Of a DNA stretch of 24,823 bases, positions 2,996 through 19,660 are shown one piece after another. The translations under genes were made by a program, and so were the position numbers. Source of the stretch: a virus; the IMG/VR virus record IMGVR_UViG_3300042376_000446, positions 1 through 24,823 of that record; one strand, written 5' to 3'. Below the pieces are notes generated by a model. That model saw nothing but the letters and a program-made list of their open reading frames with translations. It had not been told where the DNA came from and ran no database searches. Within the stretch, counting starts at the first letter, position 1; each line of letters begins with the position of its first letter.

Positions 2996-3037
2996 TCGAA
3001 ACTTTAGTCAAAATACAATTGTGTTTTTTTATTAAAA

Positions 3038-3712
3038 TTATCTAAAAAGTAAAGTTGCAATACGACCAGCTCCTGGGGATTGACTGTCATTAACGAAAAA
3101 ACTTCCCCAAGAAGCACCTGGATTATTTTGTGTACCGCCTGTCCCTTGACCCGAGTTAAAATCTACTGCCGCAGCTGATCCTATACCGGTGCCAGAATAT
3201 AAGGTTTGACCTCCTGTGGGTCCGTTATAATCTCTAAAAAAGTATCCAACTTGTCCAAAATATATCGGAAAATCTTTTCCACTAAAATATAACACAATCT
3301 GTGCCGAACCTCCATTCCAAAAGCTTCCGCCTACGTAAACTCCAGTTACAACAAAAGTTGGATGATTATTCGTTACCATCACTAATCCTTGTCTATCTGT
3401 AAAAAATGAAGCATCTGTTACATTAACTCGTAAATCAATTTTATCGAATTGCGCGCTAGTTATGTTTGGATTTCTTATGTATAATTCAGTTTGTTTTTGA
3501 TCTCCTATTTTTGTATATGTATTACTAGATTTCCAAATTCCAGAATTTTTATTCCAAGACAGCGTATTTCCATTCCATGCGTTTATTTCGTTTTCGCTAT
3601 TATAACTTATGTCTGCGTCTAGGGCCTTAAATTGAAAATTGGTAATTAGTCCTGAATCAAGACCTTGTCTTTGCGATATTACGTCTCCATCAGTTGTTAG
3701 TTGATAACTCAT
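3038..3712 (-). CDS. Unrecognised virion-type protein, coupled to the upstream fibre-like gene
   Basis: This 224-residue protein is not recognised. It is rich in Gly, Ser, Asn and aromatic residues (for example WNGNTLSWNKNSGIWKSSNTY at about 45-65, and FPIYFGQVGYFFRDYNG at about 148-164) with alternating polar and hydrophobic residues, as expected for an all-beta surface protein. It has no signal peptide or membrane segment. Its ATG overlaps the stop of the 727-residue gene by 4 bp (ATGA), so translation is very probably coupled and the two products may work together, for example as a fibre and its cap, tip or chaperone. It is the last gene of the adhesin-like block before the sheath gene. 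The Gly-rich C-terminus (residues 165-215) resembles receptor-binding tips in composition only. Confidence 0.7.
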   Translation of the reverse strand: MSYQLTTDGDVISQRQGLDSGLITNFQFKALDADISYNSENEINAWNGNTLSWNKNSGIWKSSNTYTKIGDQKQTELYIRNPNITSAQFDKIDLRVNVTDASFFTDRQGLVMVTNNHPTFVVTGVYVGGSFWNGGSAQIVLYFSGKDFPIYFGQVGYFFRDYNGPTGGQTLYSGTGIGSAAAVDFNSGQGTGGTQNNPGASWGSFFVNDSQSPGAGRIATLLFR

Positions 3713-5892
3713 TGATTTATTAATTTTGCGTATACGTTTATATCTTTTGGTATTAATCTCGTTGGAACAAATCTTCTTTTTGTGCCTATTGCATTTTCAC
3801 CCAAACCCGTTAACCACACGGAACCATTCCAATATTCCACTATACCATTTTTATTTTCGCATAATTCTTGTGACATGAGTAATTCATCGTTATCAAATCT
3901 ATATAATTCTATTCTTTGTTTATTTATATCATTGTAATATTCATTTTGTATCCACGAAAAAACACCGCTATTTAAATTTGTATCTTGATAATTCCACGCA
4001 AATTGAGATGGAATTCCATCTTCATTTTCATATAGTAGAGCTAAACTTAATATTCTAGCAGGTAACATTATTACTCCAGCTGTTCTAAATTGAAAAGCAA
4101 ATTGAATTTCATTAGAAGGAGTTGTCTTAGACATATCTCCATCTTGAGGTATGTCTATCCAACTTCCGCTATTATTACTTATGCCTTGAGTTCTATACTG
4201 CACTTTATACATATCAGGAGTTACTCCAAAATATGTATCGCCTATATTTTTTACACAATTAACTAATAATCTATAATATTTTATTGGTGTAATTTGTAAT
4301 GTTATTCTTGGACATATAATTCTATTGTTGTGATAATTAAAATATTCAATATCTGCGCCTAGCGGATATATCGCTACTCCATTTACGTTACTAGTAGACG
4401 ATCTAGTATAATTATAAAACATCCAACCTTCTAAACTATTAATTAATGCGTTGTTTGATAGCACTGAATGTACGAAATTGGGCGAATTAGAATTTTTTAA
4501 TGCGCTAGGTAATTGAGTAGTTAAACACCCAATACGTCTAGTTAAAGGAGTTTGTGATCTAGTGTCTGGAGGGTTCCAATTGGCGCCAAAAAAATTAGTT
4601 ATATACATATTTCCCGTAGACGTTACAGCTGTAAGCTTATCTATAGATTCATCTGCATTCACTGCAACAAAATTTCCTCCTGTAATATTAGTTCTTAATC
4701 CATATGGCCAAGATTCTAATCCTGGAGGATCTTTCTCTGTTACTATTTTTTCAAGGATATATTGAGATCCAGTAATTTCCATTTGCGAGAGACTACTTCC
4801 TATAATAGATGAAACATTTGGACGAAGACCAACGTCGACTAAACTATACCAGTAATAAGAAGCAGAATTGGCAAAAGATCCGCTTTTTAAAGTAACTAAT
4901 TTTCCGTTACTAAACGTACCTATATTTGGATATACTCCTGCAACTCTACTAGTTATTACGCCAGATTGTACTCCCGAAACCAGCGAAGTTAGCGGAGTTC
5001 TAATATTACCTGAACCTACATCTACTTTTTGAGATATGTCCGCATAATAAGAAACAGTATACACACTTTGAGTGGTCCATGATACCATTTCGTTTGTGTC
5101 AAATCCGTAAACAACAGCGCCTCCAGCTGAAGATAATCCATACACTGCTTTTATTTTATCGACTGTTGATGCCGCTGGTATTGAAGTAGCGGGATTTATA
5201 AAATCTTCGAATCTTATGCCTTTTGCTAAAAATATATTTGGACTATTTGTTCTAGAGTGTAAAATTATTAAATCTTGTATCACATAAGAAGATCCTGATG
5301 GTACGGTTGCACTACCTGTTATTGTTAAAGACGTATCAGATGGTATACTCGCTATTGGATACCACGTAGATATTTGTTGTGGATCTGTACTACCAAATCC
5401 TATTCTAGATCCCACTGATAATCCTACACTCCAAGTAGTATTTGATCCTGTAACAGTGTTTGCATTCACCGTTACACTACCGCTAGTGTAGTTTGTTAAT
5501 ATTACTTTCATAGATGTCACTGTAGCGCTGCCACCGCCTGGAAAGTTTAATGTTATAGCTCCCACATAATTTACTCTATTTATTGATGGTATAAAAGTCC
5601 ACAATTGAACTCTGCGAGTTGCACTAGCTCCTGCAGCATCGTTACCAAATAACCAATATAAATCATCTGTAATTTTTATCGGACTAAATATTGAAGACGG
5701 AATTGCCAATTGACTTTCTGCGCTATTAATTACTGTAACTGGGCTTGGTCCTATGAATTTATCTATTCTATCGGAACCAATATTATATTGGCCAGTATGT
5801 TTGCCTACATTTATCTTATCAGGATCATAAACACCACCAATAGGAATTTGAGGTAAAGATCCATCAAATACTTGTTCAATAGCTACTTTCAT
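3709..5892 (-). CDS. Fibre-like virion protein, copy A of a tandem paralogue pair
   Basis: This 727-residue protein is a paralogue of the gene just upstream (5903-8041). Both begin MKVAIEQVFDGS and share KINVGKHTGQYN, DKFIGP, LAIPSS and a WTF/WTY strand within the first 110 residues. Both then have a small beta module at about 138-206 (VTVNANTVTGS, VGSRIGFGSTDPQQISTWYPI, SSYVIQD). Both end with a well-conserved region: NRIICP, GDT, PDMYKVQYRT, NNSGSW, IQFAFQFRT, MLPARI, SLALLYE and RRFVPTRLIP. The middle (about 255-480) differs from its sister. This pattern fits a beta-rich distal-tail or fibre protein whose ends attach to the virion or trimerise and whose middle varies. No enzyme motif is visible. 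The start is 10 bp after the upstream stop. It is very AT-rich in places: 3901-3960 has 11 G or C in 60 bases by hand count. Confidence 0.75.
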   Translation of the reverse strand: MKVAIEQVFDGSLPQIPIGGVYDPDKINVGKHTGQYNIGSDRIDKFIGPSPVTVINSAESQLAIPSSIFSPIKITDDLYWLFGNDAAGASATRRVQLWTFIPSINRVNYVGAITLNFPGGGSATVTSMKVILTNYTSGSVTVNANTVTGSNTTWSVGLSVGSRIGFGSTDPQQISTWYPIASIPSDTSLTITGSATVPSGSSYVIQDLIILHSRTNSPNIFLAKGIRFEDFINPATSIPAASTVDKIKAVYGLSSAGGAVVYGFDTNEMVSWTTQSVYTVSYYADISQKVDVGSGNIRTPLTSLVSGVQSGVITSRVAGVYPNIGTFSNGKLVTLKSGSFANSASYYWYSLVDVGLRPNVSSIIGSSLSQMEITGSQYILEKIVTEKDPPGLESWPYGLRTNITGGNFVAVNADESIDKLTAVTSTGNMYITNFFGANWNPPDTRSQTPLTRRIGCLTTQLPSALKNSNSPNFVHSVLSNNALINSLEGWMFYNYTRSSTSNVNGVAIYPLGADIEYFNYHNNRIICPRITLQITPIKYYRLLVNCVKNIGDTYFGVTPDMYKVQYRTQGISNNSGSWIDIPQDGDMSKTTPSNEIQFAFQFRTAGVIMLPARILSLALLYENEDGIPSQFAWNYQDTNLNSGVFSWIQNEYYNDINKQRIELYRFDNDELLMSQELCENKNGIVEYWNGSVWLTGLGENAIGTKRRFVPTRLIPKDINVYAKLINQ

Positions 5893-5902
5893 TATTTTAT
5901 TT

Positions 5903-8041
5903 TTATGAAACTATTATTTTTGCATACAAATCTATACTTCCAGGTAAAGATCCTGATGGAACAAATCTTCGCCTTGCTCCTAAAGTATTCGATCCAAGTC
6001 CTCCTGCCCAAGCACTGCCGTTCCAATGTTCAAATGCTCCATTAGTACTACCAGTTGATGATTGCACTAACACTAATGCATTCGTATCTGCTCTATATAT
6101 TTCTATGCTGTGAGTCGGTAAAGATCCGAATAACGAATTTTGTATCCAAGCAAAAGATCCTGTAGCAGAATTAAAATCACTAAAATTCCATCTATATTGC
6201 GAAGGGAGAGAATCTATAGTTTCGTATAATAGCGCTAACGATTGTACTCTAGCTGGTAGCATCATAGTACCAATTGTTCTAAATTGAAAAGCAAATTGTA
6301 TATTCAATGCAGGTAATACGCCAGATAAATCTCCGTCTTCAGGAACGTCAGTCCAAGATCCACTATTATTATCTATTCCTGATGTTCTATATTGTATTTT
6401 ATACATATCGGGAGCAATTCCCATTGCTGTGTCTCCTAAATTTTGTACAGCGTTGGTTAATACTCTATAAAATGCTGATGGCGTAGATCCTAAATTTATT
6501 TTTGGACATATAATTCTATTATTTACATCTAATTGATGATCCATGTCTGCCGCTAATGGATATGCTGTTACAGCGTTAGAGTTTGTTGCAGTCGAGTTAC
6601 CGTATAACCAAAACAACCAACCACTATTACATGCTATACTTGGTGTATTATTTATTATTTGATGAACAAAAATTGGACTGTCTAAATCTCTTAGAGACGA
6701 AGGAAGTTGAGACGTCAAACACGAACATCTCCTATCTATTTGTTGGCCGCCTGTGTAGTAATCAGTTACATACATAGTACCTGTTGATGATGCTCCAACG
6801 ATTATTAATTTATCTATTAGTGTATCCACATCCATTGCAGAAAACGTACTGACAGATACATTTGTGTTTGTAGTTCCAGGAGGAACTTCTGACATGGAAT
6901 CGGCTACAAAAGTGGTACTAGCAGCTGTTACACTACTTGTGGGTATTCGTAATATTCGCGTAGTCGTATAACAGTATATGCTTGTACTACCAGAAGCTAC
7001 TCCATGCCTTAATGTTGCTACTGTTCCATTATTTGATTGAACTATATTACCTGTAACTGTTTGTGCGCCCGTAATCACTATATCACTACCAGATAGCGCA
7101 GTCTGACCAGCTGTTAATGGCGCTAATGTCGCTCTTAGATTGTATCTATACATCTGTAGTGAAGTACTAGATCCTTCTGTGCAATACACGTATTGTTGAC
7201 TCCAAGAATCAAAATTTCCAACTGCGCAGCCTCCAATAACATCGTTAGTCACGGTTGCGGCATCTTTTAACCAATAAGTTGCTTTTATTTTATCAGCAAC
7301 AGACGCAGATGGTATTGCTTTTGCAGGATTTTGAAAATCTTCAGGTCTTAATCCTTTTGTTACGAACAATCCTCCATTCGTAGCAGTAGCAGCCGTGAGT
7401 GCATGAACTAACATTAAATCTTGTATTACATAAGGAGACCCAGACGTGATTGTTCCCGCTGATGAGCTTATAGTCATTTGAGTATCACTACTTATTGTAG
7501 CTATTTCATACCAAGTAGATATTGTATCCGGATTTGTTGATCCAAATCCTATCCTAGAGCCTACTGAAATGCCAGTATTCCACGCAGTACCTGAGCCTGT
7601 AACTGTTGTACTATTTACAGTCACGCTTCCTGTTGTATAATTAGCTAATATAGCAGATATTCCTCTAACTGTTTTATTAGTCGCTGAGGGGAAATTTATG
7701 GTTATTGCACCTATAAACGTATATGTATTTGTAGAAGGAACATACGTCCACATTTGAGCTCTTCTAGTTATCGCGGCAGCAGCTGCGTCTGCTCCGAAAA
7801 TCCAAAATAAATCATCATTTACTTTTATTGTACTAATCACTGAAGATGGTATTGCTAACGTAGTTTCTCCGAAGTTAGCTACACTTAATGGAGTAGGACC
7901 TATAAATTTATCAGTTTGTCCGGAACCTAAATTATATTGGCCAGTATGTTTTCCTACATTTATTTTTGTCTCGTCATAAGCTCCCGTTATGTTCGTTTGC
8001 TGTATTGATCCGTCAAATACTTGCTCTATTGCTACTTTCAT
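5903..8041 (-). CDS. Fibre-like virion protein, copy B of a tandem paralogue pair
   Basis: This 712-residue protein is the sister of the 727-residue protein encoded just downstream. The opening MKVAIEQVFDGS, the HTGQYNLGS, DKFIGP and SRIGFGSTNPDTISTWYEI segments and the C-terminal PDMYKIQYRTSGI, IQFAFQFRT, MLPARV, SLALLYE and RRFVPSG segments all match it. Even in the best-conserved parts the DNA differs at many silent positions, so the duplication is not recent. The central part (about 250-470) is Thr/Ser-rich (for example SGSTSIYCYTTTRILRIPTSS) and differs from its sister. The protein is probably an all-beta surface or fibre component. The ATG at 8041 follows the 142-residue gene by 15 bp with an A/T-rich leader. 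Function is inferred from composition and context. Confidence 0.75.
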   Translation of the reverse strand: MKVAIEQVFDGSIQQTNITGAYDETKINVGKHTGQYNLGSGQTDKFIGPTPLSVANFGETTLAIPSSVISTIKVNDDLFWIFGADAAAAAITRRAQMWTYVPSTNTYTFIGAITINFPSATNKTVRGISAILANYTTGSVTVNSTTVTGSGTAWNTGISVGSRIGFGSTNPDTISTWYEIATISSDTQMTISSSAGTITSGSPYVIQDLMLVHALTAATATNGGLFVTKGLRPEDFQNPAKAIPSASVADKIKATYWLKDAATVTNDVIGGCAVGNFDSWSQQYVYCTEGSSTSLQMYRYNLRATLAPLTAGQTALSGSDIVITGAQTVTGNIVQSNNGTVATLRHGVASGSTSIYCYTTTRILRIPTSSVTAASTTFVADSMSEVPPGTTNTNVSVSTFSAMDVDTLIDKLIIVGASSTGTMYVTDYYTGGQQIDRRCSCLTSQLPSSLRDLDSPIFVHQIINNTPSIACNSGWLFWLYGNSTATNSNAVTAYPLAADMDHQLDVNNRIICPKINLGSTPSAFYRVLTNAVQNLGDTAMGIAPDMYKIQYRTSGIDNNSGSWTDVPEDGDLSGVLPALNIQFAFQFRTIGTMMLPARVQSLALLYETIDSLPSQYRWNFSDFNSATGSFAWIQNSLFGSLPTHSIEIYRADTNALVLVQSSTGSTNGAFEHWNGSAWAGGLGSNTLGARRRFVPSGSLPGSIDLYAKIIVS

Positions 8042-8056
8042 AATATTTTTTATATG

Positions 8057-8485
8057 TTATTGTATGGTAATAAATCCGTCTATTTCATTTAGCGATATAG
8101 TAAAACCAGCGCTATAATAAAATCCTTGACTATCATATATTATAACTCCGTAACCAATATCATAATATCCAATTAGTGGATTTCCAGACGCAGTCGAATT
8201 ATATACCACAACGTATCTAAACGTAGGACTATTTACTCCAACCGCAGATATAGTTAAATTACGTTCTATCAATTTGTACGTACCGTCCACTTGAGCGGAC
8301 GAAACCGTAACTAAATTACGACTACTTAATCCAGTATAATCTATTTCGGTTATTTCACTCAATTGTGTGAAGCTTCCGCTTGGTCTAACATTAGTGAGAG
8401 CGACTGTTAATTGATCTGTGGACAGATTGTGTTTTTTTTCAACTAAATCTTTTGTAAAACAATTAAATTTAATAAACGTTGGCAT
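8057..8485 (-). CDS. Small conserved phage protein of the KFN...VHNL...ALTN type
   Basis: This 142-residue protein resembles a widespread family of small tailed-phage proteins of unknown function. These typically open with a KFN segment and follow with HNL, a VALTN strand and a RYVVVYN strand before an I/LIGYYDxG motif. Here they appear as FIKFNCFTKDL (residues 4-14), KHNLSTDQLTVALTN (18-32), FRYVVVYNSTASGNPLIGYYDIGYG (89-113) and a final GFTISLNEIDGFITIQ. The pattern suggests a compact beta-sandwich. In my memory such genes usually sit among head-decoration or tail-fibre genes; I cannot name a proven role. It is flanked at 15 bp on both sides by the repeat-rich 449-residue gene and the paralogue pair, so it is probably a virion component co-expressed with them. 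Confidence 0.7.
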   Translation of the reverse strand: MPTFIKFNCFTKDLVEKKHNLSTDQLTVALTNVRPSGSFTQLSEITEIDYTGLSSRNLVTVSSAQVDGTYKLIERNLTISAVGVNSPTFRYVVVYNSTASGNPLIGYYDIGYGVIIYDSQGFYYSAGFTISLNEIDGFITIQ

Positions 8486-8500
8486 AATCCTTATTATTTT

Positions 8501-9850
8501 TTATGATGATATATCCCCGTATAAATACCATTCGTCAGTACCTATTTTCGTTAAGTACGCAAATCCGTACCTAGCAGATATCTTCGTAAAATTACTTCTG
8601 CTTCTAACCGTTACTCCAGATCCAGACGCGAACGTAGTTTGTCCTGCTCCGTACTGAGTAACCGTAAATCTAGCGTCCAATGGTATGGGTACAGAAGCGT
8701 TAGTTGGTATAGTCAATGTATTCGCCGAGCCTGAATCCATTTCTATTAATCTGCCTATGTCTGAACCTGCTATAGTATACGAGCCTGTCTTTCTTGTTCT
8801 ATTGAAGAATAGTGTATTCGATACATCGTACTGAAAATAGTAATCACCATCCATTCCTCCGCTTGGAGCAGTAGGACCAGAAGTTATCACTTTATTTGCC
8901 CCGACAGTGTTATAACTCGCAGTGAAAGCTACAGATCCGTCGAAAGAAGTACCTGGTGCTGATCCGCTGCCAGATGCGTTAAAGAATAGAGAATTTGTAG
9001 TAGTTCCGCCACCGCCTCCTCCACCGCCTCCGGAACCTGTGTTAACGGTTATTGGAAACGTACTTCCGTCTCCCTTAGTAAACGTAATAGTATTTAATGA
9101 GACCGAAGCTGTAATTAATGCATTGGAAGTATTAGATGCTGTTAGTGCACTTATCGACCAACTAGAGGTTCCAAATAAAGACCCACTAAATACTCCAAAG
9201 AAAGATCCAGTAAATGATCCCGTACCAGATTGTGCTACGCTCGCAGTGACTGCATAGGACGCACTGGTCGATGTAGAAGATGTTAAGGCGTTGATTGACC
9301 AACTAGAAGTTCCAAATAATGACCCAGAATAACCCTGAGTAGCTGTAACTGATCCTGTAACTATTAAACTACCTGTTATAACAGCAGAACCACTAAATGG
9401 GAATCCTGCACCAGATCCTCCTCCCGCTGAACCTGTATTAACAGTTATTGGAAAAGTACTACCATCACCTTTAGTGAATGTTATTGTATTTAAGTTTACA
9501 GACGCAGTTACTAGCGCATTAGGCGTAAAAGATGCAGTTAAAGCATTTATTGCCCAACTAGCTGTGCCGAATAAAGATCCTGTAAATCCTCCAAGACTAG
9601 TAATACTTCCTGTAACAAATAAAGATCCGCTAACATTGGCTCCTATTATTTGCCAACTCACTTCTAATGATGGCTGAGCTGCATTTACTAAAACATAAAT
9701 AGTATCGTTATCTCTTTGATACACTATCAAGCCTTCATATACGTTAGCAACAGACAAACCAAGTCTAGCTGTAGCATTTGCCACACTAAATCTAGCATCT
9801 ACTGGTTCTGTGCTAGTGACATTAAATCCTGCAGGTAGTATTATAGGCAT
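8501..9850 (-). CDS. Modular tail-fibre-like protein with two repeat units and a phage C-terminal domain
   Basis: This 449-residue protein has three parts. Residues 1-56 (PVDARFSVANATARLGL, YEGLIVYQRDNDTIYVLV) match an N-terminal domain often seen in phage fibre proteins. Residues 74-283 are a low-complexity Ser/Thr/Ala/Gly region with three GSLFGT(A/S)SW motifs and two NTITFTKGDGSTFPITVNTG units, the second followed by nine glycines. Residues 356-447 (GSYTIAGSDIGRLIEMD, TLTIP, FTVTQYGAGQTTFASGSGVTV, KIGTDEWYLYGDI) match a C-terminal beta domain common in phage structural proteins that may be a trimeric tip. The protein is inferred to be an elongated, probably trimeric, fibre or adhesin. Its stop lies 15 bp before the 142-residue gene, and its start follows the 542-residue gene by 3 bp, so it is in the same transcript. 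Confidence 0.8.
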   Translation of the reverse strand: MPIILPAGFNVTSTEPVDARFSVANATARLGLSVANVYEGLIVYQRDNDTIYVLVNAAQPSLEVSWQIIGANVSGSLFVTGSITSLGGFTGSLFGTASWAINALTASFTPNALVTASVNLNTITFTKGDGSTFPITVNTGSAGGGSGAGFPFSGSAVITGSLIVTGSVTATQGYSGSLFGTSSWSINALTSSTSTSASYAVTASVAQSGTGSFTGSFFGVFSGSLFGTSSWSISALTASNTSNALITASVSLNTITFTKGDGSTFPITVNTGSGGGGGGGGGTTTNSLFFNASGSGSAPGTSFDGSVAFTASYNTVGANKVITSGPTAPSGGMDGDYYFQYDVSNTLFFNRTRKTGSYTIAGSDIGRLIEMDSGSANTLTIPTNASVPIPLDARFTVTQYGAGQTTFASGSGVTVRSRSNFTKISARYGFAYLTKIGTDEWYLYGDISS

Positions 9851-9853
9851 AGC

Positions 9854-11482
9854 TTATGTTAAATCATAGGTTATAGTTGTTCCTGCACCTCCAGCTTGAA
9901 GTAAAATAGTTCTGTACACTTTATAATCTCCAAGAGACGACGAAGTAAATGAACTTAAAACTCCAAATCCCGATGATTGTATATTGGTTAAAAAGGCTAA
10001 AGAGGAGTTATATACTATATAGTGGTACTTATCTCCAGTCCATGTTATAGTTGTTGATTGTCCAGGATTTGTAACAGTGCCTTTAGATATAATTCCCACA
10101 TTTCCACCTATAGTAGTATCCCAACCTCCAATATTTTCTATTTCATTTTGAGTTAAACTCGAAGATACTGAAGCTCCAGATCTTAGACTTCTTATCTTTG
10201 TAAATGTACTAGTTGCCAACGCAGTAGTAACTAAGGCCGGACTATTATCTGATCCATTAACGCCTGAAGAAGAGTATGATGATGTAGCTCCAAACACTAT
10301 GCTCGCCGATCCTGTCAATGATCCTGTAACAAATATGGGGCTTGTTCTAGAAGAAGTTACAAAATTTAATACCCATCCATTTGCAGCTCCAGAAGCTGTC
10401 ACGTAAGTGATACTTCCAGTCGCGCCTTGTTCTATTTGATTTGATGATGCTCCTAATTGAATACTAGCTGTTGGGGTTATGGTTGGAGCTCCAGGATTTG
10501 TTTTGCTAAGAGTGCCTGCCAAAGATGCACTTTGTACAAGAATAGATCCATTCGCTGGATTACTTGCTGTTATTTGTAAAAGATAAGTGTGACTTCCAGA
10601 ATCCAAAGTTTGATATGATAATGTAGTACCAACTCCTGTTTGGGCCAATAATACGCCACCTTCAAATATCGAAGCAGATATTAAAGTGTATCCTGCATTT
10701 GACCACGCAGCTGAAGCTGTGTAATCGTCCAATACTTTATTAAACCTATCAGTTATAAATGTAGAATTAAAAGAAAACGAAGATATAGAGTGAGTGGCTG
10801 GATTTCCAAATATAAATTTAAGTCTACCTGCGGTAAAGTCTACAGCAACGTCTGTAGAATAATCTAATACTTCTATTTGTGATAAAGATTGTAGACTACT
10901 AGTAACGTACTGTATATTAGATAAGTTTGCGTAACTTGAAGATAATGCATACGACGAGCTTATTGCTTGACTCGCAGTTCCAAATAAAGAAGCAGTAACT
11001 CCTTGAGTGGCTCTAATTGATCCTGTAACTACTAAGCTACCAGATATAATAGCCGAACCAGTGAATGGAAAATCAGAAGTACCTCCACCTCCACCGCCTG
11101 AACCAGTATTTACTGTTAATGCAAATGTAGAACCATTGCCTTTGGTAAAAGTTATAGTATTTGAGTTAACTGATGCTGTTACTATAGCATTGGGCGTAGT
11201 AGAAGCTGTAGCTGCAGTAGTTGCAAACGAAGCTGATGATATGCTTCCTAATAAGAAAGATGCTGTAGCTGCGTAAGAACTACTTAATGCTTGTAATGCA
11301 TAAGATGCAGTTGCACTTCCACTAGACGATAATCTTTGTATAGATTCAGAAACGCCATTACTCTGTTTAAAAAATATTACTCCATCTGTAGTATTTATGG
11401 CTAATTCACCTAATGCCAAATCTTGGACAGTGGGTTGAGTACCTACAGCAGAACTATTTTTTAATATTATTCTAATTGACAT
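9854..11482 (-). CDS. Modular tail-fibre-like protein with a fibre N-terminal domain and a distinct C-terminus
   Basis: Residues 3-40 of this 542-residue protein (IRIILKNSSAVGTQPTVQDLALGELAINTTDGVIFFKQ) match the virion-attachment N-terminus of many phage fibres (a basic strand, then LGELAINTxDG.LF). Residues 50-195 are the Ala/Ser/Thr repeat region with one NTITFTKGNGSTFALTVNTG unit, a run of six glycines, the FPFTGSAIISGSLVVTGSI block and an ASLFGTASQA motif. The rest (205-542) lacks the repeats. A region around 245-325 (YTLISASIFEGGVLLAQTG...LLQITASNPANGSILVQSASL) looks Ig-like. The end (about 484-542; KYHYIVYNSSLAFLTN, DYKVYRTILLQAGGAGTTITYDL) resembles a C-terminal domain seen in several phage fibre proteins. 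It is the first gene after the 65 bp gap holding a putative promoter. Confidence 0.8.
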   Translation of the reverse strand: MSIRIILKNSSAVGTQPTVQDLALGELAINTTDGVIFFKQSNGVSESIQRLSSSGSATASYALQALSSSYAATASFLLGSISSASFATTAATASTTPNAIVTASVNSNTITFTKGNGSTFALTVNTGSGGGGGGTSDFPFTGSAIISGSLVVTGSIRATQGVTASLFGTASQAISSSYALSSSYANLSNIQYVTSSLQSLSQIEVLDYSTDVAVDFTAGRLKFIFGNPATHSISSFSFNSTFITDRFNKVLDDYTASAAWSNAGYTLISASIFEGGVLLAQTGVGTTLSYQTLDSGSHTYLLQITASNPANGSILVQSASLAGTLSKTNPGAPTITPTASIQLGASSNQIEQGATGSITYVTASGAANGWVLNFVTSSRTSPIFVTGSLTGSASIVFGATSSYSSSGVNGSDNSPALVTTALATSTFTKIRSLRSGASVSSSLTQNEIENIGGWDTTIGGNVGIISKGTVTNPGQSTTITWTGDKYHYIVYNSSLAFLTNIQSSGFGVLSSFTSSSLGDYKVYRTILLQAGGAGTTITYDLT

Positions 11483-11501
11483 AATCTTAGCTAGTGTTAC
11501 C

Positions 11502-11523
11502 TATAAATATACGGGTAACTATT
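11502..11523 (-). promoter_or_regulatory. Putative late promoter box before the 542-residue fibre gene
   Basis: The 65 bp gap holds TATTTATA at 11509-11502 on the minus strand, 19 nt before the ATG at 11482, inside CCGTATATTTATAG. The segment matches 562-583 at 20 of 22 positions. It is flanked by a perfect 6 bp inverted repeat, GTTACC at 11496-11501 and GGTAAC at 11514-11519, with the box in the 12 nt between. The remainder of the gap is AT-rich with no terminator. Confidence 0.5.
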
Positions 11524-11547
11524 TGTCAATTACTTATTATAAATTGA

Positions 11548-11712
11548 CTACATTGTGCTTTTTATAGTGGATATAGATTCTTCTGTCTCTATAATTTCTA
11601 TTTGTAATTTAGTTATAGTTTGCAAATCTCCAGTACTTTGAGCCAATCTCATAAGAACGTGTAAGTTTTGTAATTTTCTTTCTAACACAAGAATTATATC
11701 TCTAAGATTCAT
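11548..11712 (-). CDS. Small helical phage protein (54 residues)
   Basis: A 55-codon reading frame runs from ATG at 11712 to TAG at 11548, filling the space between the 948- and 542-residue genes. The product is MNLRDIILVLERKLQNL at its start and GDLQTITKLQIEIIETEES near its end. It alternates hydrophobic and charged residues and should form a helical hairpin or short coiled coil (residues 2-25 and 31-54 around a turn at STGD). Small phage proteins of this two-helix pattern often accompany tail-fibre genes, as I remember the family. The start is 18 bp after the upstream stop. The A/T-rich leader lacks a Shine-Dalgarno sequence, like its neighbours. A fibre assembly or attachment role is a guess from context. 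Confidence 0.7.
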   Translation of the reverse strand: MNLRDIILVLERKLQNLHVLMRLAQSTGDLQTITKLQIEIIETEESISTIKSTM

Positions 11713-11730
11713 CTAATTTATATTTAACTA

Positions 11731-14577
11731 TTAATAATATAACATAGTTCTCATTACCTCGGTAGATGTATGTTTTACAAACCATAAATATTTAAGACCG
11801 TCTGGACTTGTAAATACTTCCATCCTATTTCTTATTATTGCAGCACCATTTGCAAATGGCGCCAATCCTGCTCCATGTATCTGATTTGTATTAGTGTCTA
11901 AATAGTAAAATCTTAGTGTTGCATCTTTAGTAAAGTATATTCTATCTCCACCATCATAAGCGGTCATAGTACCAGTACTTAAAGTTTCTCCCAATGGACT
12001 TGCTGCTATAAATTCTACTTTATCAGTAGGTATATCTATAAATTCCCAGTTATTTGTAGCGCCACCGCGAGGGATATATATCCTTCTTCCTTTAAGATCT
12101 AGATTTGTTGTATTTTGCGCCCACTGCGCTTCAATACCAACGCTTCGAGTTGGTTGTTGCATAATAGCATAAGAAGAACTTAATAAGCCGGGGGCAGTTA
12201 TACTTCCAAAAGTTAATGTAGTATTTGTATTACTTGCAATAGTAGTTTCTTCTCCTATACCAGACCCAGCTAATATTTTTAAACGTCTACCAGCAAAGAA
12301 GTTTGTTACCCAACCACTTGAAGTGATAGCCGTAAGAGGCACACTTTGAGTATAATTTACTAAATAGCTTCCAGAATAGTCTGTTACAAGTGTACCCGAA
12401 GCATAGTTAACTATAAAAGTACCTGGGAATATTAAACTACCTGTTATTAACGAGCCTATACCAAGACTTCCACTAACTCCCACATTAGTTGTTACAGTGA
12501 GTAAGTTTCCTGATATAGAACCAGATCCAACAAAAAATGCGTTTGTGTCAGTTAGGGTTGTTGCTGTTGGCACACTACCAGTAGTAAAACCAGTATACAT
12601 ACTACCAATCATGTCGTTTTTGGTCAATATATAGCGAGTAACTCCATTTAGCGGCGCAATAAATGTGGGCGTCGCAAATACAAGAGAGCTAGAAGTATTA
12701 GATACAATACGTGTAATTGCGCCAGTAGCAATACCATTTGTTGCTATCGTAGACACATTCATGTATAAATTATAACCTGCCCATTGATTTGTTCTCCAGT
12801 TCTTAGTAGTATCAACTAAAGTCGATAAACTTTGAGAAGAAGATCCGGATGCATTTGGTGTACCTGCCATAGTATATTGAAAAACACTCGCCGATGGTAT
12901 ACTCGTTATAGAAAATGTGCCATTATAGTTGGCATGTGATATACCTCTAATAGTTATTGGTTGATTAAGTTTAAAAGAATGGCTAACTGCTGTTGTTATT
13001 GTAGCTGTTGTGCCAGACGCAGTCATAAATGATATTCCTATCGGTTTATTATTACCAAATTGTGCAGATGCATTTAAAGCTATACCGCTCTCTTCGTCTC
13101 TACCATACGACGGCAAATCATCAGCGAGATTTAAGAACGCAATACTAGACTGACCCCCGATCGCAAGATATGTCTTATCAGGATCTGCTGTTATATTGTA
13201 AACTGATGAGCTATTATACGAAAAAGAAGAAGATCCATACACTGTAATAGAGCTAGAATTACTCGAAGCTATTGGTAATAGAGTTCCAAATCCACTACCA
13301 CTAACGATTCTAAGGGCATAGTTTTTCCATCTATTTAATGGCCAGTTTTTTGTACTATCTATCAATTGATTAAAAGAACCCGAAGTCGCTCTACCAGCAT
13401 CAAATCCATCTATAAAATATTGAGATCCAGAATTTGGTGCCACTGACATTGTCTCATATGTTAATGAAGTTGCGGTGTTAGTTAATATTCTTGCTTGTTG
13501 ACCTTCGCCCTGTCCACTCCATATTCTAACATAATAACTTCCACTTAAGCTACTACTTGCCCATTGATTTACATTCCAAGATTTGCTGGAATCTATTAAA
13601 CTAGAAGTTGTTGAAGTCTGCGTCACTATACCTCTCTCCCAAACAGTCGCTTGATCTCCTGTACGCTCCAGTGATGCGTCTGTACCTGTAGAGCGTATAA
13701 AATTAGTTAAAGATGTTTTAATATACCACGTATCACTGATTGCGTCATATTGTTGCACACTATAGTTAGAGGTAGCTTGTGAAGAGGCCAATATTATGGC
13801 TCCTCCCTCAACTTTAAAACGAGAAGAACTATCCGGCACAATTGACCATGGAAAATCAAGTGTAACGTTATTTGCCTCTATACTAACTATTGTCTGAACG
13901 CCTGCAGTAGCGGCAATAGCGGGAGAGAATACTGAAGGGATTGCAAAAGGCTCGTACGCTGCATACAATGTGGATCCAAAAATCAATTGATTAGCTGAAT
14001 TTCCTATTATTCTTCTTACTTGAGTAGAACCAGCGCCTTGAATAACTCTCGCTTGATATCCTAACCACCTATTAACTCCCCAGTTTTTAGCTGTATCTGT
14101 TAATGTTATATCACCAAGCGTATTTGTAACTGTAGTGGCTATAGCGATATCTTCTACAATTGCATCAGATACGTCTAATATAGTTCTTCTTTGGCCGGCG
14201 CCTGTGCCAGAGACTATAGATACATCATAACCTACATAAGCTTTGCCAAAGTTAGCAGGTACATACAATGTATTATTAGTTGCTCCTAATACAAATCCCT
14301 CAATACCAGCAGACATTAAAAATCTCATTGTTGAAAAAGTTGTTGGAGTGATTGGTGGAGAAGCTAACTGCATGTACGTATCTGTCCAAGTATCGTATCT
14401 CCAAAAACTAGTAGCGGCATTTAAATAGTAGATATATCTACCAAAGTTTATATGCATCACAGGATTTAAAGCAGTACAAGAAGTAGATATCGCAGAACTG
14501 TTACCTCCCTGAGCTGCTCTTAATGGTTCCCATACTGGTAAATCTATTGCAAGTTTATTGTTATTAATTATGGCCAT
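11731..14577 (-). CDS. Large repeat-containing virion surface protein (948 residues)
   Basis: The longest gene of the window encodes a beta-rich protein. About six degenerate copies of one module occur at residues 105-150, 156-202, 322-390, 402-460, 586-650 and 753-806. The pattern is D(S/T)(A/S/T)K(N/S)W..N(R/Q)W, then a strand such as LRIVSGSGFG, then I.SN....L.F. Residues 519-577 (TTATITTAVSHSF...ITIRGISHANYNGTFSITSIPSASVFQYTM) look like an inserted Ig-like or Big-like domain common in phage proteins. Residues 47-72 (YIYYLNAATSFWRYDTWTDTYMQL) and 888-904 (LRFYYLDTNTNQIHGAG) resemble Kelch-like propeller blades. It is probably an elongated baseplate, fibre or surface adhesin component. No catalytic motif is seen. 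It begins 18 bp after the 103-residue gene. Function is inferred. Confidence 0.78.
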   Translation of the reverse strand: MAIINNNKLAIDLPVWEPLRAAQGGNSSAISTSCTALNPVMHINFGRYIYYLNAATSFWRYDTWTDTYMQLASPPITPTTFSTMRFLMSAGIEGFVLGATNNTLYVPANFGKAYVGYDVSIVSGTGAGQRRTILDVSDAIVEDIAIATTVTNTLGDITLTDTAKNWGVNRWLGYQARVIQGAGSTQVRRIIGNSANQLIFGSTLYAAYEPFAIPSVFSPAIAATAGVQTIVSIEANNVTLDFPWSIVPDSSSRFKVEGGAIILASSQATSNYSVQQYDAISDTWYIKTSLTNFIRSTGTDASLERTGDQATVWERGIVTQTSTTSSLIDSSKSWNVNQWASSSLSGSYYVRIWSGQGEGQQARILTNTATSLTYETMSVAPNSGSQYFIDGFDAGRATSGSFNQLIDSTKNWPLNRWKNYALRIVSGSGFGTLLPIASSNSSSITVYGSSSFSYNSSSVYNITADPDKTYLAIGGQSSIAFLNLADDLPSYGRDEESGIALNASAQFGNNKPIGISFMTASGTTATITTAVSHSFKLNQPITIRGISHANYNGTFSITSIPSASVFQYTMAGTPNASGSSSQSLSTLVDTTKNWRTNQWAGYNLYMNVSTIATNGIATGAITRIVSNTSSSLVFATPTFIAPLNGVTRYILTKNDMIGSMYTGFTTGSVPTATTLTDTNAFFVGSGSISGNLLTVTTNVGVSGSLGIGSLITGSLIFPGTFIVNYASGTLVTDYSGSYLVNYTQSVPLTAITSSGWVTNFFAGRRLKILAGSGIGEETTIASNTNTTLTFGSITAPGLLSSSYAIMQQPTRSVGIEAQWAQNTTNLDLKGRRIYIPRGGATNNWEFIDIPTDKVEFIAASPLGETLSTGTMTAYDGGDRIYFTKDATLRFYYLDTNTNQIHGAGLAPFANGAAIIRNRMEVFTSPDGLKYLWFVKHTSTEVMRTMLYY

Positions 14578-14595
14578 ATTATTTATTTTATATTT

Positions 14596-14907
14596 TTACG
14601 ATATATTACTTCTTAATCCTGTGTTATACATTATTCTTTGGTTCATCATTTGAAAGTCGTTGTTTGTGTAACCACCAAAGTTACCAATTGAGTTTGTACC
14701 TACTGGTAAGGCGTTAGTTATAGCTGTTACAGCTGATACAGTAGTTACTGTAGATAATGTTAAACCCGATGTTATAGAGTCTATATTAATTCTCTGTCTT
14801 TGTAAAGAATCTGCGTTAGAAGAAGCTTCTAAAGCTCTTAATATACGTCTCAATAAAAGTATTGAGTCATCTGTTGCAGCATTTTTTGGTACTTGGTTGT
14901 AAGCCAT
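14596..14907 (-). CDS. Small unrecognised phage protein (103 residues)
   Basis: This 103-residue protein starts MAYNQVPKNAATDDSILLLRRILRALEASSNADSLQRQRINID, giving a helix at about 13-38. A Ser/Thr/Val-rich, probably beta, segment follows (TLSTVTTVSAVTAITNALP, 50-68), then a polar tail (YTNNDFQMMNQRIMYNTGLRSNIS). I do not recognise it. Short proteins with a single N-terminal helix and a Thr/Val strand are frequent between tail-fibre genes in environmental myoviruses, and this one could connect or trimerise fibre subunits. Its start is 3 bp after the stop of the 828-residue gene, and it precedes the 948-residue gene by 18 bp. Both spacings indicate co-expression. Confidence 0.7.
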   Translation of the reverse strand: MAYNQVPKNAATDDSILLLRRILRALEASSNADSLQRQRINIDSITSGLTLSTVTTVSAVTAITNALPVGTNSIGNFGGYTNNDFQMMNQRIMYNTGLRSNIS

Positions 14908-14910
14908 ATT

Positions 14911-17397
14911 TTAATATATTATATATTGTGTGTTATTAGAACTTAAGTTTATTGCGTTAAATGGATTATCTATGTTTACTATTGTTCCATCATCTATCAA
15001 ACTAAAATCTATTGCATATATAGTTGCTAAACCATCTATTAATTTTATTATATATTGATTTTTATTTCCTAAAGCTGTTGGTAATATAAAAGTATTTACC
15101 CCTTTTGAATTATAAATATACGTGTCTCCATTTCCAGAAGGAATTGATATTGTTTGGTTATTAACTTCTATTATATTTACAGAATTTCCTCCGCCTCCGC
15201 CACCTGTAACTGTAATAGGAAAAGTAGTTCCATCTCCTTTTGTAAAAGTAATAGTATTTGATGATATTGATGCTGTTACTAAAGCATTAGGAGTAAAAGA
15301 CGCAGTAAAAGCTAAAGATGCTGTAGCGATGCTTCCCAATAAAAAAGAAGCAGTAAGCGCCAAACTACTAGTTTCAGCTTGACTCGCAGTACCAAATAAA
15401 GATCCAGTAATTCCTTGAGTTGCAATTATAGAACCTGTTACTATTAAGCTACCAGATATAATAGCAGAACCAGTAAAAGGAAAATCAGAGATGCTTCCAC
15501 CGCCACCACCGCCACTACCTGTATTTACTGTTAGTGGAAATGTAGTTCCATCTCCTTTAGTAAACGTAATGGTATTTAGATTAATTGAAGCCGTAATTAT
15601 ATTAGTTAATGCTACTGATGAAGTAACAGCGAAACTACTAGATATTGATTGACTTGACGTAATAGAGTATGTACCTATTGCTAAAAAAGAAGCAGTAGCT
15701 GCATTAGTTGCAATAGAAGCTGTTGCTACACTCATTGAACTCGTCTGAGATACTAGTAAGTACGGAGTAAGCATCGATGCTGTACTACTATTTAATACAT
15801 AAGCAGGGGCAAAAGAAGCTGTTTGTGTAAAAGAAGAACTAATTGCTTGACTTGCAGTACCAAATAAAGATCCAGTATATCCCAAAGTCGAGATAATAGA
15901 ACCTGTTACTACTAAGCTACCTGATATAATAGCTGATCCAGTAAATGGAAAAGTACTTCCACCTCCTCCACCACCACTACCTGTATTTACAGTAATTGGG
16001 AATGTGCTACCATCTCCTTTAGTAAATGTAATAGTATTAAAATTTACTGAAGCTGTTAAAATATTATTTAAAGCCAAAGATGCCGTTACAGTTCTAGATG
16101 AGCTGACAGCAAATGATGCACTAAGTGCTGTTGATGCAGTAACTGCGGCATTTATCCATACACTTCCACTTCTTACTAATCCTTGACCAGTTTCAGGACT
16201 TATTATTTTAACATCATGTAATTCATCTAATTCGAATCCATTGTCAATTCTAACATACATTGAACCATTATTCAATTGTACTCTTAATACTTGACCTAAT
16301 CTTACTGCGTGTAGTGGAGCCTGTGGAGCTGAACCTGTCATTGATCCACTTGATGCTAAAAATAATAACTGTCCTGCTGTATAATTAGATGTATCTATAC
16401 CTAACAACTTACCTTCTGTCATTACGTAACCAAAAGCTTGATCAGGTATATTTTCATTAGTTAATCCTAAAGTATTAGCTGAATTTGTATCGTCAGTCCA
16501 ATCCGCTAAAGAAATATTAGCATTATCTCCTGTAGCTCCTGATATTCTAACAACTTTTCCTTTATCGATTTGTACTCCAGTTACATTCTTTACATAAATT
16601 AAAACGTCTTGAGCATTATGAGCACCATCAGCAAATGAAGCTGTTAAAGCATAAGATGAACTTATAGCATTTAAAATAGAACCGCTAAAAAAAGAAGCTG
16701 TTGCAGCAAATGAAGAAGAAACTGCATACGATGAACTTATAACATTTAAAGCCCAACTAGCAGTTCCAAATAAAGAACCTGTATATCCTTGGGTCGCTGT
16801 TATTGATCCTGTTACTACTAAGCTGCCCGAAATTATGGCAGACCCCGTAAAAGGAAAATCAGAAGCACCGCCGCCTCCAGAACCTGTGTTAACTGTAATA
16901 GGGAAAGTACTTCCATCCCCTTTAGTGAAAGTAATAGTGTTTTGAGATACGGACGCAGTTACTAAATTATTCAATGCTATTGATGCAGTAATTGCTCTAG
17001 AGGAACTTATAGCAAATGAAGCGCTTAGTACGCTCATCGAGCTCGTCTGTGAAGTTAACACGTATGGTGCTAACATTGAAGATGTACTACTATTCAATAC
17101 GTAAGCCGGCGCAAAAGAAGCTGTTTGTGCAAAGCTACTTGAATTTGCTTGGCTTGCTGTAATTGCATATGTGCCTGATTGTAAAGTAGATGCAGTTGCG
17201 GCATTAGTAGCAAATGATGCACTTGCTACACTTCCCAATAAAAAAGAAGCAGTGAGAGCCAAACTACTAGATATTGCTTGACTAGCAGTGCCGAATACTG
17301 ATCCAGTGATTCCATTTGTCACGGTCCAGCTTCCACTGACTACGCCAGAACCACTTATTATTATGGAACCTGATATTACTGGACTATATATTCTCAT
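14911..17397 (-). CDS. Long modular tail-fibre-like protein with four repeat units
   Basis: This 828-residue protein is built from repeats. Four NTITFTKGDG(S/T)TFP units followed by glycine-rich linkers lie near residues 143, 444, 598 and 704, and four GS(L/V)FGTAS motifs accompany them. Residues 258-398 form a conserved phage domain (VKNVTGVQIDKGKVVRISGATG, LGLTNENIPDQAFGYVMTEGKLLGIDTS, GQLLFLASSGSMTG, PLHAVRLGQVLRV, NGFELDELHDVKI) found in many virion proteins. The C-terminal ~90 residues (FILPTALGNKNQYIIKLIDG...INLSSNNTQYIIY) resemble the tip domain of fibres. The protein is inferred to be a long trimeric fibre or surface adhesin. Its first residues lack a standard fibre attachment domain, so it may join another fibre subunit. 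It opens a transcript candidate, with an ATATTTAT box 20 nt upstream. Confidence 0.82.
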   Translation of the reverse strand: MRIYSPVISGSIIISGSGVVSGSWTVTNGITGSVFGTASQAISSSLALTASFLLGSVASASFATNAATASTLQSGTYAITASQANSSSFAQTASFAPAYVLNSSTSSMLAPYVLTSQTSSMSVLSASFAISSSRAITASIALNNLVTASVSQNTITFTKGDGSTFPITVNTGSGGGGASDFPFTGSAIISGSLVVTGSITATQGYTGSLFGTASWALNVISSSYAVSSSFAATASFFSGSILNAISSSYALTASFADGAHNAQDVLIYVKNVTGVQIDKGKVVRISGATGDNANISLADWTDDTNSANTLGLTNENIPDQAFGYVMTEGKLLGIDTSNYTAGQLLFLASSGSMTGSAPQAPLHAVRLGQVLRVQLNNGSMYVRIDNGFELDELHDVKIISPETGQGLVRSGSVWINAAVTASTALSASFAVSSSRTVTASLALNNILTASVNFNTITFTKGDGSTFPITVNTGSGGGGGGSTFPFTGSAIISGSLVVTGSIISTLGYTGSLFGTASQAISSSFTQTASFAPAYVLNSSTASMLTPYLLVSQTSSMSVATASIATNAATASFLAIGTYSITSSQSISSSFAVTSSVALTNIITASINLNTITFTKGDGTTFPLTVNTGSGGGGGGSISDFPFTGSAIISGSLIVTGSIIATQGITGSLFGTASQAETSSLALTASFLLGSIATASLAFTASFTPNALVTASISSNTITFTKGDGTTFPITVTGGGGGGNSVNIIEVNNQTISIPSGNGDTYIYNSKGVNTFILPTALGNKNQYIIKLIDGLATIYAIDFSLIDDGTIVNIDNPFNAINLSSNNTQYIIY

Positions 17398-17417
17398 TTT
17401 TTATTTGTTGCGCTGTT

Positions 17418-17425
17418 TATAAATA
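17418..17425 (-). promoter_or_regulatory. Putative late promoter box before the 828-residue fibre gene
   Basis: The minus strand reads AGATATTTATAA here, 20 nt before the ATG at 17397, in a 38 bp gap. It shares the ATATTTAT octamer with four other intergenic gaps. The sequence further upstream does not match the 562-583 and 11502-11523 copies. Confidence 0.4.
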
Positions 17426-17435
17426 TCTTTTTGGT

Positions 17436-18404
17436 CTACTTCTTTACCACTATACTTCCAGAAAATAAAAATCCAATGTTTATAAATACTTGATTTGTAT
17501 TTATCGACTGTATTTGGATCGGTATTATTTGCTCTCTATCAACTGCGTCATATATCTGAACTATGGGATACTCTTCATTTAAACTATGAGTGATAGTATA
17601 CATGGTTGATCCAGATACGCCTATTTTGTAGAATGGAGTATTTGCCGCAAATGATGCAGATGTTGCAAAAGATGCTGATATGGCGGTGCCACTTCCCTTT
17701 GATACAATTGCGTATCCACTCAATGCATTTGGAAAAGTAATTGTTATTGTATTTAAACTAGTAGCTACTACTTCTTGAGGTATTACTGCATAATAGTCAG
17801 AACCATAAACGTCAACATGCGGGATTTGAGTATTAAGATTATGGTTTATAGTCCAAGTAGTAGATGGACTAGATTGCGTATATACAAAACCTTGATCCAT
17901 TATGCTAATAGCATAAGACGCAGTTAAAGCGTTTTGTGACCAACTAGAGGTTCCAAACAAAGATCCAGTAATACCTTGTGTAACTTCTAAAGAACCAGTA
18001 ATTACAGCAGATCCGCTATATGGAAAACCAGCTCCTGTGCCTCCCCCTCCGCCAGATCCTGTATTAACAGTTATTGGAAATGTAGTACCATCACCTTTGG
18101 TAAAAGTAATTGTATTTAGAGATACTGATGCTGAATATATAGCATTTTGTACAAACGATGCAGTAGCCGCAAAACTGCTACTCAAAACAGTCATAGACGA
18201 TGTTTGAGAAGACGCTATTACAGGAGAATTATTAATCCATAAAGATCCAGTTATGCGTACACTGCCTGTAAAATCATGACTTTGAGAAATATTATTACCA
18301 AACACGTCAGACCCAGAAACTAAAAAGTCGCTACCAGTAACTATAAGTCTACTTCCTGTAAACCTAAGCGGGGCAAGTATTTGATCTAATTTTAGTTGGG
18401 ACAT
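17436..18404 (-). CDS. Short modular fibre-like protein with two tandem C-terminal domains
   Basis: This 322-residue protein has an N-terminal LKLDQILAPLRFTGSRLIVTGSDF segment, a Ser/Thr/Gly repeat region with one NTITFTKGDGTTFPITVNTG unit and one GSLFGTSSWS motif, and two related domains at residues 172-238 and 256-322. These share an I(N/T)H(N/S)LN strand, (H/I)V(D/Q)(V/I)Y, then Q, a T(I/V).I.F strand and a G.(A/I)(I/V)(V)(S/V)K end. Domains of this kind (INHNL...P.V.V.D...) occur singly or in tandem at phage fibre ends. The protein is probably a short fibre or tip that binds a surface or another fibre. It follows the gp15-like stop by 2 bp, so it is coupled to the neck-gene cluster. Confidence 0.78.
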   Translation of the reverse strand: MSQLKLDQILAPLRFTGSRLIVTGSDFLVSGSDVFGNNISQSHDFTGSVRITGSLWINNSPVIASSQTSSMTVLSSSFAATASFVQNAIYSASVSLNTITFTKGDGTTFPITVNTGSGGGGGTGAGFPYSGSAVITGSLEVTQGITGSLFGTSSWSQNALTASYAISIMDQGFVYTQSSPSTTWTINHNLNTQIPHVDVYGSDYYAVIPQEVVATSLNTITITFPNALSGYAIVSKGSGTAISASFATSASFAANTPFYKIGVSGSTMYTITHSLNEEYPIVQIYDAVDREQIIPIQIQSINTNQVFINIGFLFSGSIVVKK

Positions 18405-18406
18405 TT

Positions 18407-19660
18407 TTATGAGAATTTACCTACTGCTACTATTATTTTATCTGTTAATTCGTATCCCAATATTGGGGTGTTTACGATCAACACAAGATTGCCAAATCCA
18501 TCGGGACCAAAACTTGATATTTCATTGGCCAATATAGGAAGACCGTTCGCATAAAAGTTAAAATTATTTACTGTCGTAGGCGGCAAACTAGATCCAGGCG
18601 AAGGTTGTAAAATAGATGCTCCAACAAACGTAGCTGTATTAGCGGTTACAGAGTTGGCTATCTTACTTATGAAAGTGTTTAAATACGCTAAATCAGCAGA
18701 AGCAGCGCCTCCAGATCCTCCAATATAGTTAACGATGTTAGCCCCTGCTCCCACAAAATTTGTAGCTTTATTCACTTGCGCTTGAGTTCTATTTGTTTTT
18801 GATATAAATTGCTCTTTGTCTCCGCTGGATACTTCTAAATCGAAAACTATCTGAGACGTACTATATTGTATTTTGGTTGATGCTAAATACTCGTTTAACA
18901 CATCTGGTATTAAATATCCATTAAGTGTTATATCAAAGTTAGTTCTAACTAGTCTATCTTCTCCGACTTCGTAAGTTATAGAATCGTTGAAAGTTTCTAT
19001 AGAAGAGTAAAATTTAAATCTTTCTAAATCCCCCCAATAAGATCTTGACGCAAAATTTAAACTCTCAATTAGTTTATTCATTTGTTCTGCGAAATTAGTC
19101 CACACTATACAAGAGTAAGTTACAGTTACGTAATCCGGAGTTACCACCACTTGATACTCTTTTTCGGGTACCCTATTCGTTAATACAGAAAAATTACTAT
19201 AGTTGTTTCTTTTGTTGTATTTTTTTTCTATAAACTGTAAATTTTGAGCGAAATTTCCGTCTATCTTAAATCCAAGTTCTCTGTTTTGCGATATACTACT
19301 TCTAGAAAACATAATTAACGGAGCTTGTATCTTTCCATTTTTGTCCCTGTAAAATCCGTCTTGCTGTACTCCTTTCCAATTTTCTGGTGTTCCATATATC
19401 ACGTTAACTGGTACAAGCTTATTATTTTGTATTACAGATAATTTTAATTTATTTTTTATATAATACATAACCGCTTCGTCCAAGTCTTGAATACCCACTT
19501 GTATGTTTTTGCCTTCGGAATTTCTTTGTGATAGTTCTAACGCACGATTATTTTCCGGTTGACCCAATTTGGCCTCCATTATACGCTCGGTTTGATCGGG
19601 CGCTGCCAGAGCTTCCATGAACTCTCTCTGCTTAGCTGGTCTTACTTTCGTATTTGCCAT
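18407..19660 (-). CDS. Tail terminator / proximal sheath stabiliser, T4 gp15-like, with extra domains
   Basis: The central part of this 417-residue protein matches T4 gp15 (272 residues). Residues 83-95 (VPVNVIYGTPENW) correspond to gp15 VPITYASKEHF; residues 178-204 (VTVTYSCIVWTNFAEQMNKLIESLNFA) to YELSIFTRYEDDMFQIVEQIL; and residues 239-252 (RTNFDITLNGYLIP) to RIEWSLTFEVNGWMYP. gp15 caps the tail and joins it to the neck. This protein carries a polar N-terminal extension of about 50 residues and a C-terminal part, not in T4 gp15, with a domain at about 363-417 (VNNFNFYANGLPILANEISSFG...LIVNTPILGYELTDKIIVAVGKF). That last segment resembles a small domain found in other phage structural proteins. 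The start overlaps the preceding stop by one base (TAATG). Alignment is from memory. Confidence 0.82.
   Translation of the reverse strand: MANTKVRPAKQREFMEALAAPDQTERIMEAKLGQPENNRALELSQRNSEGKNIQVGIQDLDEAVMYYIKNKLKLSVIQNNKLVPVNVIYGTPENWKGVQQDGFYRDKNGKIQAPLIMFSRSSISQNRELGFKIDGNFAQNLQFIEKKYNKRNNYSNFSVLTNRVPEKEYQVVVTPDYVTVTYSCIVWTNFAEQMNKLIESLNFASRSYWGDLERFKFYSSIETFNDSITYEVGEDRLVRTNFDITLNGYLIPDVLNEYLASTKIQYSTSQIVFDLEVSSGDKEQFISKTNRTQAQVNKATNFVGAGANIVNYIGGSGGAASADLAYLNTFISKIANSVTANTATFVGASILQPSPGSSLPPTTVNNFNFYANGLPILANEISSFGPDGFGNLVLIVNTPILGYELTDKIIVAVGKFS

Follow-up and report, generated by a model that had tools for sequence, protein, structure and literature searches.

Tandem copies of a predicted beta-propeller protein, one conserved and one diversified, within a mosaic cassette of a phage genome

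The stretch of DNA analysed here (the window) corresponds to a virus record of 24.8 kb and encodes a major capsid protein, PhoH, a tail sheath and a tail tube. The best named matches to its capsid and sheath proteins include those of the Flavobacterium phages vB_FspM_immuto (62% and 49% identity, respectively) and of Microcystis phage Mel-JY01 (48% and 46%), and they point to a contractile-tailed, T4-like phage. The ORF list of the window places two genes in tandem on the minus strand, copy A (3709–5892, 727 aa) and copy B (5903–8041, 712 aa), and these coordinates confirm the co-directional neighbours, 10 bp apart, that an earlier note on this DNA had described. They are accompanied on the same strand by p224 (3038–3712, 224 aa) downstream of A, by p142 (8057–8485, 142 aa, a match to phrog_644) upstream of B and, further upstream, by p449 (8501–9850). 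Together with p542 and p828, p449 belongs to the repeat-rich, fibre-like proteins encoded upstream of the pair. Repeats such as GSLFGTAS and NTITFTKGDGSTFPITVNTGSGGGG are common to p449, p542, p828 and p322 (8501–11482 and 14911–18404), which may constitute a second, fibre-like paralogue family with common modules.

Copies A and B align from end to end in BLASTP with 47% identity and a score of 652 bits, far past chance. In a 26-sequence alignment, the identity between them is 62% over columns 1–255, 30% over columns 256–475 (which include 37 gapped columns) and 51% over the remainder. The earlier observation of similar ends around a differing centre thus stands, whereas the notion that the centre is a different domain does not: compared on their own, the variable middle of A (residues 247–445; 4558–5154, minus strand) and the matching middle of B (residues 252–431; 6749–7288, minus strand) are 29% identical with an E value of 8e-13. 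Replacement of A's middle by a foreign domain was considered and is ruled out, as it is homologous to B's middle and has the same predicted fold.

AlphaFold2 models were obtained with a mean pLDDT of 71.5 for B and 81.9 for A, the model of A being built on a deeper alignment. Both models match beta-propellers over residues ~45–520 (Z up to 20.5 for B and 17.4 for A) and, because these matches run straight through it, the middle is modelled as part of one propeller in each copy. The low-confidence stretches of the A model (residues 369–401 and 438–448) coincide with extra residues relative to B. Both predicted propellers carry an insert of ~75 residues (residues 137–205 in A, 5278–5484; residues 135–220 in B, 7382–7639; both minus strand) that resembles tail fibre proteins (phrog_1980) in PHROG and structural matches, with an Edwardsiella phage tail fibre as the structural match for the insert of A. 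The propeller family itself is an unnamed one: Pfam holds no name for it, and PHROGs match it only through the short insert.

The earlier note had looked to carbohydrate-binding or depolymerase folds for the central domain. Phages K1F and phi92 have endosialidases as tail spikes, phage tail proteins with a propeller fold, and both endosialidases are among the first matches to A in a Foldseek search of the PDB, as would be expected if A were a propeller depolymerase cleaving the capsule or polysaccharide of a local host. The resemblance goes as far as the propeller and the rank among A's best structural matches. TM-scores over the full length are low, however, and A matches a large number of unrelated propellers, non-enzymes among them, equally well, so the fold gives no function. 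Unlike the spikes, A and B lack the sialidase Asp box ([ST]x[DN]xGxx[WFY]), and no carbohydrate-binding, depolymerase, enzyme or C-terminal S74 family was found in either protein by Pfam at E values up to 0.1. Assignment of A and B as depolymerases or sialidases by family or motif is consequently unsupported, and we regard a depolymerase function of A as very unlikely. What comparison of the two central regions does show is the same predicted fold in both copies, which in part speaks against the interpretation in the earlier note, yet also a strongly diverged middle in A that lies in a mosaic cassette (see below).

Relatives turned up in profile scans at 71 virus loci and at 7 genome loci. Contigs with both copies were confined to the near-identical lineage to which the window belongs, for which the sample comprises just three haplotypes out of few studies: 3300044911 (the window type, of which 3300044614 is a truncated contig), 3300046010 with 3300046009, and 3300035666. 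Both frames are open in all three haplotypes and no decay of either copy was seen, contrary to the regular decay of one copy that the earlier note named as a refuting outcome. A single copy is present in 19 other whole records that were searched end to end, and in ~65 other virus loci overall, which are very diverse in gene content and in many cases come from fragmentary records, so that a second copy may have been missed in some of them; where complete, the single-copy proteins are nearly all 711–718 aa long. No relative of B was found among 50,697 records of isolated phages, and a sequence search of the PDB with B gave no match.

With Patescibacteria homologues as the root of the tree, A and B form sister clades (100/99) inside the single-copy family, and removal of the middle columns leaves them sisters (100/98); the branches of A are long, which calls for caution on its placement. 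The sister placement, the restriction of two copies to this lineage and the intactness of both in three haplotypes favour a tandem duplication of B inside the lineage, predating the split of the haplotypes, as the probable origin of A, a view that is supported but not settled. The alternative, that A is no local duplicate but a distant homologue that came in from another phage and was set beside B, would account for the long A branch and suits a family that is clearly mobile, and an AU test with all columns retains a tree with A outside all others (p = 0.13). We consider it unlikely, given the sister relationship in both trees, the AU result without the middle columns (p = 0.008), and scans with A alone or with three A proteins, which detected no gene outside the lineage nearer to A than the single-copy level. 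The duplication and specialisation proposed in the earlier note are thus supported insofar as one copy has specialised beside its sister, with the proviso that it takes the removal of the middle columns to reject an older or imported A.

Comparisons within and between haplotypes identify the copy that has changed. The middle region of B is 79% identical between the window and locus L002, and among single-copy relatives the same region is 72% identical on average; the middle of A in the window is only 30–36% identical to those of A in the other two haplotypes, a level that does not exceed the one between A and B. Middle divergence is therefore a property of copy A only. B is also about 60–68% identical to most single-copy genes, compared with about 42–47% for A. 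B is the conserved, ancestral-type copy, and the divergence of A is greatest in the middle of the propeller. The earlier proposal of two receptor or polysaccharide specificities is plausible from the sequences, although one conserved and one diversified copy fit them better, B's middle being invariant.

At the codon level, dN/dS is about 0.1 in B (a close pair), and in A it is 0.12 for the N-terminal region, 0.28 for the middle and 0.17 for the C-terminal region in the single pair with moderate dS, the remaining comparisons of A being near saturation at synonymous sites. Purifying selection seems to act on both copies and to constrain A's middle least; this region differs between haplotypes but stays in frame, the only disruptions being changes in length. 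A bias of variation between strands and loops in A's middle is weak (37% vs 30% identity). With regard to a diversity-generating retroelement, the divergence of A extends over the whole gene with high synonymous change, and no reverse transcriptase was found among the PHROG matches of the scanned ORFs of the window, a record that is itself a fragment.

Two short tracts were also observed. A stretch of ~33 bp (ATAAATGTAGGxAAACATACTGGCCAATATAAT) is near-identical in A and B of the window (5782–5814 and 7931–7963); the A genes of the other haplotypes do not share it, and it has the look of a brief gene-conversion tract between the two genes. At about 7163–7273, some 40 codons of B are 97–100% identical in DNA between the window and L002, with most of the remaining gene at 60–88%, and this is likely a recombination tract inside B.

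The divergence of A is set in a wider pattern. Between the window and loci L040 and L041, the flanking DNA is 97–100% identical over the tube, p197, sheath, p542 and most of p948 genes, except that identity drops to 84% in one patch of p542 (against L040) and to 93% in one of p948. Over a cassette of ~6 kb (about 3001–9100, edges approximate, minus strand) that contains p224, A, B, p142 and the C-terminal part of p449, identity falls to 46–88%, with an abrupt edge after the sheath gene and a graded one inside p449. Strongly diverged genes thus lie between near-identical flanks, as in an exchangeable recognition cassette. Between L040 and L041 themselves, B is 92–100% identical, A 74–95%, most of p224 51–66% and p142 73–81%. 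These unequal identities mean that the parts of the cassette differ in history, with A, p224 and p142 the most divergent, and a pattern of this kind would result from old alleles swapped by recombination. A second, small mosaic site is visible at 10401–10600, where the patch in p542 that is 84% identical to L040 is about 100% identical to L041, within flanks of 99–100%.

These data bear on the possibility that A and B assemble as the two subunits of a hetero-oligomer, an idea also raised in the earlier note, and that the middle of A has drifted under relaxed constraint with no part in receptor binding. Adjacent, co-directional genes with conserved N-termini in common would suit such an assembly, and a dN/dS below 1 in A's middle is compatible with relaxed constraint. 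Yet L040 and L041 differ far more in A and p224 than in B, A's middle differs while staying in frame with changes in length only, and the synonymous divergence (dS of 0.63 in A and 0.13 in B) is beyond what relaxed constraint alone would give and needs a separate allele history. We hold this explanation to be possible but doubtful.

The gene downstream of the pair provides a further link to relatives elsewhere. In other phages, the gene after B overlaps B or starts within 12 bases of it in nearly all cases, and in 43 of 53 cases it encodes a conserved N-terminal segment of ~55 residues followed by a variable remainder, often with repeats of the 'WIKVSGVWK' type and a match to the minor tail protein phrog_6977. 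In the lineage of the window p224 occupies the partner position behind A; its start codon overlaps the stop codon of A, and it is found only in two-copy phages. p224 does not match the profile of the conserved segment, but a profile comparison with the partner alignment gives a match (probability 75.9%, E 2.3e-5) that covers the later part of that segment together with the repeat. If the partner touches its scaffold, a contact that we infer because of gene order, then p224 and A would have changed together.

Outside the lineage, B is found in varied settings. In Roseomonas MAG loci it lies near Mu-like baseplate, tail and tail fibre genes, and other settings include lambda- and Mu-type portals. 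Fibre-like, collagen-like or tail-fibre genes are near B in several phages, and other phages have relatives of p142 at −1 or −2 relative to B. Loci L131, L132 and L164 hold one B near a 50%-identical sheath; in L164 the single B is close upstream of the sheath gene, the two proteins being 65% and 50% identical, respectively, to those of the window. A sheath-anchored survey of 80 virus loci, many of which end early, found no A or B beside the sheath outside the near-identical group. The flanking GC content of B loci ranges from 0.30 to 0.74 and, on account of this wide range and the varied gene settings, B behaves as a portable module.

Some of these settings raise the question of a different place in the virion. 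P22 gp10 and T7 gp12 are propeller proteins of the head, neck or tail hub, and A and B could likewise be head, neck or tail-hub proteins that bind no receptor. In L170, B lies between portal and ClpP-like protease/capsid genes, phrog_3758 (head and packaging) is often upstream of B, and structural matches in BFVD include a P22 gp10 domain protein and tail tubular protein B. An essential hub protein, however, would be expected to hold its place and to be invariant between near-identical phages; the Roseomonas loci associate B with baseplate and tail fibre genes, and the insert of A and B resembles tail fibres. A role in the head, neck or hub seems unlikely to us on this balance, and A and B are most likely fibre or adsorption proteins of the virion of a contractile-tailed, T4-like phage.

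Homologues of B also occur in cells. Four Patescibacteria MAG contigs (L185–L188, around 9000–20000) encode proteins of 710–1072 aa that are 33–38% identical to B, among neighbours named by eye as rpoB, primase and uvr or GTPase-like genes. They share a conserved cluster of a Tat-like signal protein (KRxFLKxxG, recognized by eye), the B homologue, a protein of ~200–244 aa and TatC (PF00902 in L186, E 7e-34), after which come proteins that look secreted, one of them matching dockerin weakly. In L186–L188 (genomes G024–G026) the insert-like segment, at about residues 131–204 of the L185 protein, is present several times, and its repetition as a module accounts for their greater length. Of the 287 genomes sampled from one Patescibacteria phylum, 3 have the cellular homologue.

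Considering all of these results, we propose, with a probability of about 0.5, that B is a conserved virion scaffold and A its diversified duplicate, that A and p224 form a diversified recognition pair, and that exchange of the block shifts host recognition. B would keep the structural scaffold role common to other phages; a tandem duplication of B inside the lineage, before the present haplotypes split, would have given rise to A; A and p224, translated right after it, would form a diversified pair in contact with the surface of the host; and homologous recombination would swap the block, changing host recognition and leaving the rest of the virion unchanged. A middle that varies between near-identical phages is what a part that helps to choose the host would show. 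The unequal divergence of the copies and the mosaic cassette are results of computation, and duplication is the reading that the tree favours, whereas placement in the virion, contact between partners and binding of a receptor are inferred. Against this proposal stands the inconstant position of B, which lies in the capsid region in L170, and in L136 and L137 (a 256-kb virus contig) is found with its partner immediately ahead of the gene for a family B DNA polymerase; a glycosyltransferase/methyltransferase gene lies upstream there, and recognised tail genes are not nearby.

By analogy, A and B would follow a known pattern of duplicated, exchangeable phage adhesins in a variant form. Ackermannviridae carry multiple tail spikes in one phage as a branched complex, and similarly have several adhesin genes per phage with conserved N-terminal parts, whole-gene exchange altering host recognition; A and B differ from these spikes in being predicted propeller proteins, in the conservation of their C-terminal part and in having one conserved copy (PMC11414711). 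Distantly related Alteromonas phages have tail fibre modules in common, each a fibre with a partner gene, which resembles the occurrence here of what may be one recognition module in phages of different families. The likeness is one of arrangement, as the Alteromonas partner is a fibre chaperone and there are no tandem scaffold copies (PMC10579305). In the T5-like phages DT57C and DT571/2, with lateral tail fibres made of two proteins, near-identical phages likewise differ in adhesin genes and have two proteins where relatives have one, whereas the abstract of that study does not present LtfA and LtfB as paralogues with a diverged middle (PMC4728585). Gp45 of Staphylococcus phage phi11 is a receptor-binding protein whose five-bladed beta-propeller may hold the ligand, accompanied by an N-terminal helical stem and a tower (PMC4901313). 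The models of A and B have no such N-terminal helical stem and are predicted to have an insert in the propeller; the phi11 structure is not among the fold matches listed for A and B, which is no argument against kinship.

The locus therefore presents a set in which the gain of a second adhesin-like gene can be followed, from many one-copy phages to one two-copy lineage whose haplotypes vary in the middle of the second copy. The propeller family and its linked partner gene travel in phages that differ greatly in base composition and in the genes they contain, and a tentative extension, which we rate well below the main proposal, is that B and its downstream partner make up a portable two-gene display unit: B would serve as a propeller scaffold in unrelated virions, the variable part of the partner would be an exchangeable effector attached via its conserved N-terminus, and duplication of the scaffold would have let one lineage diversify both. 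Were this true, the Patescibacteria propellers near TatC would point to a surface-display fold common to phages and cells.
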